A stretch of DNA of 64,000 nt from Rahnella woolbedingensis (GTDB taxonomy: Bacteria; Pseudomonadota; Gammaproteobacteria; Enterobacterales; Enterobacteriaceae), in assembly GCF_003602095.1 (NCBI RefSeq), contig NZ_RAHH01000028.1, positions 1-64,000 on the forward strand, in the 5' to 3' direction. The notes under the pieces were generated by a model. The model did no database searches. It saw only the letters and a list, made by a program, of their open reading frames with translations, and was not told where the DNA came from. Below are positions 53,453-55,423 of the stretch, piece by piece. Positions within the stretch are counted from its first letter, which is position 1, and each line of letters opens with the position of its first letter. The translations under genes and the position numbers were made by a program.

Positions 53453-53533
53453 GCTTTTGAGCTTGGGCAGTGCTCGCAATCCTCACGTACTTTAGTACGC
53501 TCCGGTTGCTGCGCGCTGTCCGCACTTAAAAGC
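53453..53533. repeat. Palindromic repeat between uvrD and the cupin gene
   Basis: An 81-base imperfect inverted repeat centred on CGTACT-TT-AGTACG (53486-53499). Arms run from GCTTTT (53453) to AAAAGC (53533) and contain matching blocks GGGCAGTGCTCGCAA / TTGCTGCGCGCTGTCC. It differs from the ilv repeats and is likely another interspersed palindrome family; between two convergent genes it can serve as a transcription barrier. Confidence 0.7.
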
Positions 53534-53564
53534 CCTGCGCCGCTGACGCTTGCACAGCGGTGTA

Positions 53565-54041
53565 TTAAAGGGCGAAAACCTCACCCACTTCGGCTTTCGC
53601 ATACCATTCCAGCGTTTCTTTTACGCCTTCTTCGCCTTCCGGCGGAGTACCTGGCAGATAATCTTGTTCCTGCACCGGCTGATACGCGCCATGTTTCACT
53701 TCAAAAATCACGCCGCCTTCGTCGAGGGATAACACGCTGTGCCAGGTGTTGACCGGGATTTCCAGCAGCCGGGTTTCTGCGCCGAGCCACAGACGGTCGG
53801 TGACTTTGCCGCTATTATCGTAAATCAGCACCAGAAAACGTCCGCGCAGGGCGGTCAGCATTTCCCACGTGTGCGGATGGCGGTGGATGCGCACGTAGGT
53901 ACCCGGTTCCATCGCAATCGCCAGACGTTGCACGTCATCTTCCGGTGCCGGATGGATATTAAGATTCTGGCGCAGTCGCGGGGAATGAGCGGCTTTAGTG
54001 ATCAGATCACACAGCGTGTCCTGGTTTATTTGCTTAATCAT
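53565..54041 (-). CDS. WbuC-family cupin protein
   Basis: A 158-residue single-cupin protein. The family blocks are SPRLRQNLNIHP, EPGTYVRIHRHPHTWEMLTALRGRF (metal-binding His residues in HRHPHTWE) and VNTWHSVLSLDEGGVIFEVKHGAY. WbuC-type cupins often lie in O-antigen clusters; their reaction is unknown. The frame runs 48 codons further upstream, but the ATG at 54041 after AGAGACTC matches the family start. Here it stands alone between uvrD and corA. Confidence 0.85.
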   Translation of the reverse strand: MIKQINQDTLCDLITKAAHSPRLRQNLNIHPAPEDDVQRLAIAMEPGTYVRIHRHPHTWEMLTALRGRFLVLIYDNSGKVTDRLWLGAETRLLEIPVNTWHSVLSLDEGGVIFEVKHGAYQPVQEQDYLPGTPPEGEEGVKETLEWYAKAEVGEVFAL

Positions 54042-54187
54042 TATGAGTCTCTGCCTGAGAAGCGATGGGAACGGGAAAATCCAGTGCCTGAGTGTAGCCA
54101 AAAAAACGGTCAGACATAAGCCGGGAAAGGTTATCAACACCGTCTGAAATTTATGCATAAATGTTGCCAGAATAGATTTGTTCACGG

Positions 54188-54217
54188 TTGACAGTCTTTT
54201 TATTACCGGCGTAACAT
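54188..54217 (+). promoter_or_regulatory. Predicted corA promoter
   Basis: A consensus -35 TTGACA (54188-54193) and TAACAT (54212-54217) with 18-base spacing. Transcription would start near 54224, giving a leader of about 250 bases before corA. Confidence 0.65.
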
Positions 54218-54233
54218 GCGCGCACTATTATCA

Positions 54234-54305
54234 ATGAGGAACTGCGCCTTGGACACACCCAGTAGATACTGGCTCAATAACCTGTTTTCCAGGTACCACT
54301 TCTAA
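54234..54305 (+). CDS. corA leader ORF (corL-like)
   Basis: An ORF of 23 codons from ATG (54234) or 18 codons from an in-frame TTG at 54249, ending at TAA 54303-54305. The TTG has a good Shine-Dalgarno GAGGA (54236-54240) eight bases before it, whereas the ATG lies only about ten bases after the predicted transcription start. Salmonella corA is preceded by a leader ORF, corL, whose translation sets Rho-dependent termination in the leader; this ORF occupies the equivalent place. Identity with corL is by position, not by sequence comparison. Confidence 0.6.
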   Translation: MRNCALDTPSRYWLNNLFSRYHF

Positions 54306-54332
54306 GGCCCTCCTCATTGCTGATGGCCTTAG
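54302..54332 (+). promoter_or_regulatory. corA leader hairpin
   Basis: Perfect 8-bp stem CTAAGGCC / GGCCTTAG beginning at the leader ORF stop codon. Its 15-base loop contains TCCTCATTG (54311-54319), the exact complement of CAATGAGGA (54232-54240), which covers the leader ORF ATG and Shine-Dalgarno. Two mutually dependent structures are possible. Confidence 0.6.
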
Positions 54333-54472
54333 TGGTTGTCAGCGACCCCCGTTCTGTCGCTGTGAGTCAGATCTGACGTTGGTCTGAATTACGTCGGTGA
54401 CATTTTTCACTCCGTGATTTTCTGTGCTTCAACGCGTTGTCCACTTTCCGTAATTTTTGGGAGAACGGGCAC

Positions 54473-55423
54473 ATGCTGAGTGCTTTTAAATTAGAAAACA
54501 GCCGCTTATCCCGTTTAGAGCTGGACGAGTCAGACGATCTCAAAACTTCATTGTGGGTCGATCTGGTGGAGCCTGACGAGCAGGAACGTGAGCGCGTTCA
54601 ATGTGAATTAGGGCAAAGCCTGGCGACGCGTCCTGAACTGGACGACATCGAAGCCTCTGCACGTTTCTTTGAAGACGAAGACGGCCTGCACATTCACTCC
54701 TTCTTTTATTACGAAGATGCCGAAGACCATGCGGGCAACAGCACCGTCGCATTTACCGTGCGCGAAGGCCGTCTGTATACCCTGCGTGAGCGCGAGTTAC
54801 CGGCGTTTCGTCTTTATCGTATGCGTGCCCGTAACCAGAAACTGGTCGACGGCAATGCGTACGAACTGCTGCTGGATTTGTTCGAAACTAAAATCGAACA
54901 GCTGGCGGATGAAATTGAAAACATCTACAGCGATCTGGAAAAACTCAGCCGCGTAATCATGGAAGGGCATCAGGGCGACGAATATGACGCCGCGCTGTCC
55001 ACGCTGGCAGAGCTGGAAGATATCGGCTGGAAAGTCCGTCTGTGTCTGATGGATACCCAGCGCGCACTGAATTTCCTGGTGCGTAAAGCCCGCTTACCGG
55101 CAGGTCAGCTGGAGCAGGCGCGCGAAGTGTTACGCGATATCGAATCCCTGCTTCCGCACAACGAATCTCTGTTCCAGAAAGTGAACTTCCTGATGCAGGC
55201 GGCGATGGGCTTTATCAACATCGAACAGAACCGCATCATCAAGATTTTCTCGGTGGTATCCGTCGTATTCCTGCCGCCAACGCTGGTGGCATCCAGCTAC
55301 GGGATGAACTTCGAATTCATGCCTGAGCTGAAATGGTCATTCGGTTATCCGGGAGCGATTGCACTGATGATCCTCGCCGGTCTGGCACCTTATCTGTACT
55401 TCAAACGTAAAAACTGGTTATAA
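54473..55423 (+). CDS. corA: Magnesium/cobalt channel CorA
   Basis: A 316-residue CorA channel, same length as the E. coli protein. A large cytoplasmic domain (about 1-250) with a long stalk helix precedes two transmembrane helices (about 255-275 and 290-310), with the selectivity motif YGMN followed by FEFMPE and the basic C-terminus KRKNWL. It is the main constitutive Mg2+ uptake route. ATG at 54473 follows GGGAGAACGGG; the longer frame from 54437 is not supported. Confidence 0.97.

Follow-up and report, generated by a model that had tools for sequence, protein, structure and literature searches.

The 5' leader of corA, with its short open reading frame (ORF) corL, was reportedly described in Salmonella enterica by Kriner and Groisman in 2015 and 2017. 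The subject here is positions 54188..54472, forward strand, of a window of 64,000 nucleotides (nt) from Rahnella woolbedingensis contig NZ_RAHH01000028.1, the window being the whole stretch of DNA analysed. This segment, the Rahnella corA 5' leader, is of the corL type, very probably with two competing folds and with corL translation steering Rho termination.

For Escherichia coli, the accessible text of Vezina Bedard et al. (2024; PMC11552253) describes an OFF state consisting of stems A and B and an ON state consisting of C and D, plus a stem E; corL starts with UUG and lies in stem A, where its Shine-Dalgarno (SD) sequence is sequestered, a pyrimidine-rich sequence flanking stem B serves as the Rho-loading site (rut), and Rho termination within the leader occurs at U211 and G216-U220. 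According to the same text, expression from the leader drops as intracellular Mg2+ rises, corL translation is inversely related to corA (with data from UUG-to-AUG and AGG start mutants), and the same model is described for Salmonella by citation; corA had for years been regarded as constitutive, and the manner of Mg2+ sensing is treated as an open question there (PMC11552253). The mgtA leader with mgtL is similar in that translation of a short upstream ORF (uORF) reduces the transporter by way of leader folding and, in Salmonella, Rho, as far as this source describes it (PMC11552253), and differs by a uORF with several prolines and a PhoP-controlled promoter.

The sequence-only reading of the Rahnella segment had proposed a self-sensing switch in which ribosomes on the ORF decide between RNA folding and Rho loading; this switch is the published A/B versus C/D model and hence already known. 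Its coupling of translation, folding and Rho agrees with the accessible text of PMC11552253, as does, by citation there, the control of Rho termination by corL translation in the Salmonella corA leader, but its direction needs amending: when corL is translated more in E. coli, corA is lower, so that ribosomes favour the Rho-accessible state. Absent from the papers searched are corL in a second family, its codon patterns, the position of the stop codon within one arm of hairpin C, and helix F, which is a candidate.

The corL reading frame of the Rahnella leader

The Rahnella leader resembles that of Salmonella and E. coli in its gene, in a UUG-started short uORF with a conserved N-terminus directly upstream of corA, in the SD sequence within stem A, in the competition of A/B with C/D and in stem E, as these are given in the accessible text of Vezina Bedard et al. 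(2024; PMC11552253). It differs in the outer part of stem A, with nine exact pairs against a commonest run of five, and in hairpin C, where a C.U mismatch follows eight pairs. For the Rahnella leader, anatomy, conservation and, in predicted folds, mutual exclusion are established; by analogy, we infer that it would act like E. coli in Mg2+ response and Rho termination. The principal features of the locus are:

54188..54217, forward strand: corA promoter, TTGACA (54188-54193), an 18-nt spacer and TAACAT (54212-54217), read from the sequence
54236..54240, forward strand: SD sequence GAGGA of corL, ending 8 nt before the UUG at 54249, its columns invariant in the 89 rows of alignment A1
54249..54305, forward strand: corL (ysgD in E. 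coli), UUG start, 18 codons (LDTPSRYWLNNLFSRYHF), reading MDTPSR..., stop UAA at 54303-54305
54473..55423, forward strand: corA, Mg2+/Co2+ transporter, by Pfam PF01544 and a match to R. ecdela CorA

The leader set comprised 102 records, of which 91 were distinct, some genomes being present in more than one collection. Alignment A1 holds 89 of these 91 (L037 and L054 omitted; the two leaders of family f11 kept, although probably misaligned past corL codon 8), the duplex, stop-region and codon tests used another 89 (with L037 and L054 but without the f11 pair), and the constrained-fold comparison covered 83 (eight unparsed). The start codon of corL is UUG in all 91 distinct leaders, the peptide has 14-19 residues, and it begins M-D-(T/A)-P-S in the 89 distinct leaders outside f11.

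An ORF of 18 or 23 codons had been proposed, and the 18-codon version from UUG 54249 stands; the 23-codon version is unconserved, and its start, AUG 54234, was rejected because it is found in just 15 of the 89 A1 rows. A start at AUG 54216 was likewise rejected, since it overlaps the -10 box and should therefore be absent from the mRNA. The ATG at 54234 precedes GAGGA, which so serves UUG 54249 and not that ATG; the nine-base block said to cover both does contain these letters, with GAGGA belonging to the UUG. Regarding the 3' end, the ORF had been placed exactly at the base of a hairpin, and its stop is indeed at that hairpin, with TAA 54303-54305 sitting within the 5' arm. Columns 54302-54307, which hold the stop codon and the strand common to stem A and hairpin C, read CTAAGG in 87 of the 89 A1 rows, the other two being those of f11.

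The E. coli counterpart is the RefSeq coding sequence ysgD (L223:440-496), located 151 bases before corA and translating to LDTPSRYWLTILSSRINS; the names ysgD and corL thus denote a single ORF. Ribo-Ret and PIRT-Seq support the translation of ysgD in the accessible part of PMC12350097, and it is annotated as a small protein, whereas the accessible text of PMC11552253 treats the ORF as a regulatory uORF.

Competing folds

At minimum energy, 54224-54475 folds into a three-way junction (stem A with hairpins A1 and A2) plus stem B. The elements of both predicted states are:

54233..54240, forward strand: stem A outer, 5' strand (SD), pairing with 54311-54318, which is the nine-base match short of one pair; from the minimum-energy fold and duplex tests, missing from the RNAalifold consensus of A1
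54311..54318, forward strand: stem A outer, 3' strand (anti-SD), inside the hairpin C loop; minimum-energy fold
54246..54253, forward strand: stem A inner, 5' strand, holding the UUG start and pairing with 54301-54308; fold, A1 pairing and RNAalifold
54301..54308, forward strand: stem A inner, 3' strand, holding the UAA stop; fold, A1 pairing and RNAalifold
54259..54272, forward strand: hairpin A1 of the three-way junction, within corL; paired in 89/89 rows with hardly any variation
54281..54293, forward strand: hairpin A2 of the three-way junction, within corL; 94.7% of cells paired, two-sided changes from 1-2 rows per pair
54319..54343, forward strand: stem B (OFF state); 97.8% of cells paired, fold and RNAalifold
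54302..54332, forward strand: hairpin C (ON state); 94.7% of cells paired, excludes stems A and B
54340..54362, forward strand: hairpin D (ON state); 78.3% of cells paired, matched to the published D by description only
54367..54387, forward strand: stem-loop E; 86.3% of cells paired, matched to the published E by description only

The perfect 8-base-pair (bp) hairpin noticed from the letters is the core of hairpin C, formed by CTAAGGCC (54302-54309) and GGCCTTAG (54325-54332) around a 15-nt loop that holds the second nine-base block. Because hairpin C takes the 3' strand of stem A (54302-54308) and the 5' strand of stem B (54322-54328), it excludes both, so that A+B and C+D are mutually exclusive in prediction; likewise, the corL SD is predicted, and by comparison appears, to be sequestered in stem A of the three-way junction. 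Constrained folds of the first ~160 nt of the window's leader gave -56.9 kcal/mol for the OFF (A/B) state and -53.7 kcal/mol for the ON (C) state.

Over the 89 rows of A1, standard pairs fill 89.1% of cells in the OFF structure and 89.7% in the ON structure, compared with 18-48% after the partners are shifted by 1-3 columns. Within stem A, 92.6% of cells are paired in the inner part, and in the outer part 83.0% in the SD core and 42.1% in the three outermost pairs, fixed columns undercounting shifted registers. The clearest covariation lies in hairpin C, where 54311:54323 changes from U-A to C-G in 15 rows and 54309:54325 changes in four rows.

In the mechanism proposed for Rahnella, the OFF state would have stem A pairing the corL SD and UUG with the region around and after the stop, stem B formed and the Rho-loading region open, and the ON state would have hairpin C and hairpin D, perhaps with a long-range helix F. 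Since the corL stop lies within the 5' arm of C, a ribosome at the stop would mask C while stem B emerges and, to judge from the anatomy, stem A would close once the ribosome leaves. In this model masking of C from the stop codon would make translation lower corA. At high Mg2+, efficient corL translation would lead to Rho termination, and at low Mg2+, with corL translation poor or aborted, C would form first and corA would be transcribed.

Complementarity of the SD sequence and the hairpin C loop

The two blocks picked out from the sequence, CAATGAGGA (54232-54240) and TCCTCATTG (54311-54319), are exact reverse complements as claimed. However, when the 285-base stretch was dinucleotide-shuffled 2000 times, at least one nine-base match occurred in 8.25% of cases, and the 64-kb window has 69 places with exact 9-mer complements 3-111 nt downstream, so the 9-mer by itself is weak. 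Nine exact pairs are reached in only two of 89 parsed leaders, the window's and that of R. ecdela, which are near-identical Rahnella; the other 87 have 3-8, mostly five, with five the longest run in 33 of the 89. Within the genus Rahnella, L003 and L024 (R. perminowiae) have five contiguous pairs, L024 with three more past a mismatch. The exact nine-base block was thus rejected as a functional unit. The two f11 leaders have their own exact nine-base match in different letters, GAGAGGACA against TGTCCTCTC, the latter beginning 2 nt after the corL stop.

The mean energy of the SD:anti-SD duplex was -8.98 over 66 distinct combinations of SD arm and loop, against -6.14 for shuffled loops, none of 1000 being as low. 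Because the duplex energies beat both shuffled loops and loops swapped between species, SD occlusion is a conserved tendency at the level of sequence comparison, and helix length is species-specific and unconserved. Lack of conservation or covariation of the two blocks had been named as one refuting outcome: the SD core is conserved beyond composition, but the nine-base extent is not, and the SD helix lies outside the RNAalifold consensus. Similarly, of the proposal that loop-to-leader pairing hides the ribosome-binding site, what holds is that a downstream block can sequester that site; the block belongs to stem A and excludes the hairpin.

corL in other families and its codon patterns

Covariance model R1 of the leader core, built like its alignment A2 on 50 of 79 distinct cores, matched 33 of 394 genomes drawn from the window's order, 28 of them in the window's family (six further listed genomes of that family had no match) and five outside; the match in G226, of family f9, is far from corA and was taken as chance. 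By CorA searches and reading of the upstream regions, corL-like ORFs were detected upstream of corA in three further families, with the peptides MDTPSRCWNEIFA(R/C) in f11, MDIPGRYWLIHNIMMHSC in f5 and MDSHSRY... in f9 (L142-L144, L148-L217).

Family f9 is probably Pasteurellaceae. CorA was found in all 140 f9 genomes searched (1.6-2.9 Mb), and 70 of 72 corA upstream regions carry a UUG-GAC corL according to a script demanding TTG; scanned without that demand, 69 of 72 have TTG, the remaining three being one without a match and two untraced matches with other letters. These 72 were a non-random sample of the 30 best CorA matches, 40 covering genera and two earlier ones. The stop region of the f9 leaders (-8 to +42, 50 nt) folds at a mean of -12.9 kcal/mol against -6.7 for shuffles (-20.0 against -8.6 in the other 89 leaders), and the main hairpin begins within 8 nt of the corL stop in at least 59 of 70. 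In the literature searched, which covered the text of accessible papers, no report was found of a corL in f9-like bacteria with His4, of codon patterns suggesting constraint on the RNA, or of a stop in the hairpin C arm.

In f9, several codons lack synonymous variants (GAC 70/70, CGA 70/70, AGT at codon 5 69/70, TAC 65/70), an invariance to be read with caution, since the search pattern that retrieved the f9 ORFs spans these codons; AGT at codon 3 becomes AGC in 4/70, and codon 4 is His in 69/70 with the wobble position free. CCC, AGT and TGG do not vary among the 89 leaders tested outside f9, in which codons 6 (Arg/Thr/Lys) and 7 (Tyr/Cys) switch amino acid. Asp2 is invariant in both sets, and the codon-4 proline is unshared. 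Because synonymous variants are lacking in f9 while codons 6 and 7 change amino acid elsewhere, the constraint on corL looks to be at the RNA level, with Asp2 kept.

Regarding departures from the general arrangement, the f9 leader L209 shows a diverged corL and L205 shows none. In genus g11 of the window's family, leader and corL are absent from both genomes seen (L137 and L138, from G286 and G177), with corA starting ~46 nt after the -10 box.

Evaluation of alternative readings

Several results weigh against a corL-type leader with two competing folds and corL-steered Rho termination. The number of pairs with two-sided changes was matched by 11/500 letter shuffles for the OFF and 69/500 for the ON structure, and in the alignment most helices are conserved rather than covarying. 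RNAalifold on A1 returns stem A inner, hairpin A1, stem B and part of D without the SD helix. Among the 83 leaders of the constrained-fold comparison, prediction favours ON by more than 1 kcal/mol in 64 and OFF in 10, with nine within 1 kcal/mol; in truncated minimum-energy folds the SD finds its partner in the post-stop region in just 26/91 leaders, and in minimum-energy folds of f9 leaders in 35/70. In 25 of 89 leaders the SD arm has no run longer than 3-4 exact pairs, and loops swapped between species average -8.51 with 18/5000 as low as the observed mean, a modest own-loop advantage in which relatedness is still included. For the SD and start block of the f9 leaders (n=70), pairing to the post-stop region does not exceed that in shuffles (mean z +0.16; the other 91 leaders average -1.22), so that near SD occlusion is not general in that family. 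Lastly, corA goes up in the AGG start mutant of E. coli, an effect put down by its authors to a stalled small subunit in the accessible text of PMC11552253.

An anti-SD inside the loop of hairpin C would also suit a pseudoknot, in which the hairpin stands while its loop pairs with the SD block and directly blocks corL initiation. An SD-complementary stretch is present there in the window and in many of the 89 parsed relatives, and in both f11 leaders TGTCCTCTC, 2 nt past the corL stop, exactly complements GAGAGGACA. However, stem A inner, which is near-invariant, reuses the 5' arm of C, the nested fold that uses both blocks unknotted is the minimum-energy fold, and a 15-nt loop is short for a 9-bp helix; the pseudoknot is accordingly highly improbable, and the predicted folds make the contact best read as part of a rival fold. 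The same loop letters can be read in another way, the conserved CCUC being part of the pyrimidine-rich rut and its match to the purine-rich SD incidental. Such a rut flanks stem B in the accessible text of PMC11552253, and 54299-54323 holds nine C and four G, but loops shuffled at the same composition pair far worse (-6.14 against -8.98, 0/1000), and both functions may share letters; a purely incidental match seems quite unlikely.

It is unlikely, too, that corL acts chiefly via its peptide, through destabilisation by proline and acidic residues as held for mgtL, with the RNA complementarity minor. Pro4 is invariant in all 89 leaders outside f11 and the two f11 leaders have it as well, and loss of bL31 raises CorA 2-fold in work cited in the accessible part of PMC11552253. 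Against this, codon 4 of f9 is His in 69/70, though a few f9 peptides carry a proline later, and codon patterns in f9 and in the other leaders look RNA-level, with the reservation that these very codons were part of the pattern used to retrieve the f9 ORFs.

A candidate long-range helix

In several ON-constrained folds, including the window's, a further helix was predicted that encloses hairpin A2, C and D and overlaps hairpin A1 and E:

54269..54276, forward strand: candidate helix F, 5' strand CUGGCUCA, corL codons 7-10, pairing with 54363-54370; ON-constrained folds
54363..54370, forward strand: candidate helix F, 3' strand UGAGUCAG; ON-constrained folds

In 87 of 91 leaders helix F ranks as the best helix, at a distance of 113-125 nt from the start codon. 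Leader-by-leader shuffling (at most 5/100 as good) gives it no significant support, being passed by just 26 of the 91 leaders and by 2/70 of f9. As it is nearly invariant in A1, covariation cannot test helix F; its two outer pairs read UGC:GCA in 18 rows, UAC:GUA in two and a mismatched UAC:GCA in one, most rows being unpaired there. At a similar place the f11 leaders carry an exact match of 10 bp in other letters, AATGAGATTT:AAATCTCATT, which 5-6/1000 shuffles equal.

Regarding f9, GATAC(C/T) in codons 6-8 faces (G/A)GTATC or GGCATC, with C-G in 36/40 and T-A in 19/21 of the leaders with the motif, which 9/70 lack. RNAalifold on f9 clade 1 (alignment A3, 38 of 40 leaders, L160 and L186 omitted) gave no pair with two-sided changes. 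On clade 2 (alignment A4, 17 of 29 leaders) it nests SD, GGACAG and GATACT with CCUC, UUGUUC-like and AGUAUC stretches ~100 nt downstream, a fold that is 98.5% paired over the 17 rows from which it was derived. Leader L183 of this clade swaps the SD helix from GAGG:CCUC to GGAG:CUCC; the clade's two two-sided pairs both come from L183, and with a covariation term of +0.29 and two such pairs also at a +2 slide they give no support. Instead of forming a helix strand, the f9 G[TC]ATC motif may owe its conservation to a role in pausing or termination. Helix F and the f9 long-range patterns, in which relatedness is still included, are thus suggestive; helix F was not reported in the same literature. 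As a side observation, a T-rich run often follows the f9 GTATC/GCATC motif in rows of A3 and A4 and may itself act in pausing or termination.

More tentatively, and with less than even confidence, it can be proposed that the corA leader is an ancient RNA-encoded sensor of ribosome position common to Enterobacteriaceae and another family, probably Pasteurellaceae. Selection would then keep its geometry more than its letters: a weak UUG and its SD buried in one helix, the stop at the base of a competing hairpin and a helix F that links corL codons to the stretch preceding the termination zone and is open only to a ribosome-free corL. The corL peptide, including its proline, would not be the sensor. 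If corL is that old and under RNA-level constraint, the question of Mg2+ sensing becomes testable, since synonymous recoding, relocation of the stop and disruption of helix F would predict different outcomes for peptide and RNA sensing.

Promoter, gene and genomic context

The consensus-like promoter recognized from the letters was confirmed, as was the identity of the corA leader. TAACAT is invariant in the 89 rows of A1, in part by construction because these rows were retrieved by a pattern containing TAACAT with up to two mismatches; TTGACA (at most one mismatch), 16-18 nt and TAACAT occur together in 76 of 81 upstream regions. Between this promoter and the corA start at 54473 the leader is ~250 nt long, and the encoded CorA is 100% identical to that of R. 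ecdela over 315 residues.

Mg_sensor is the Rfam family name of the mgtA leader. The Rfam scan of 53500-55000 gave no match to it, and its two matches at E<=5 belong to unrelated families and lie far under gathering scores; an mgtA-type leader was accordingly rejected. The leader is single-copy in the genome, the covariance model giving a best match at E 1e-33 and the next at E 1.2, and a second copy was rejected, that match being the sole other one. Pfam detects four CorA-family proteins in the Rahnella genome, and the three further ones (G000:C12, C2 and C23; L218, L219 and L221) are without a corL leader by the covariance model. Among the collected leaders, those on contigs titled Chryseobacterium sp. 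18061 (L063), Enterobacter ludwigii EnVs2 (L090) and Enterobacter cancerogenus M004 (L100) resemble the corA leaders of Citrobacter sp. 18056 (L064) or Pantoea, and these three contigs are probably mistitled or from mixed assemblies.
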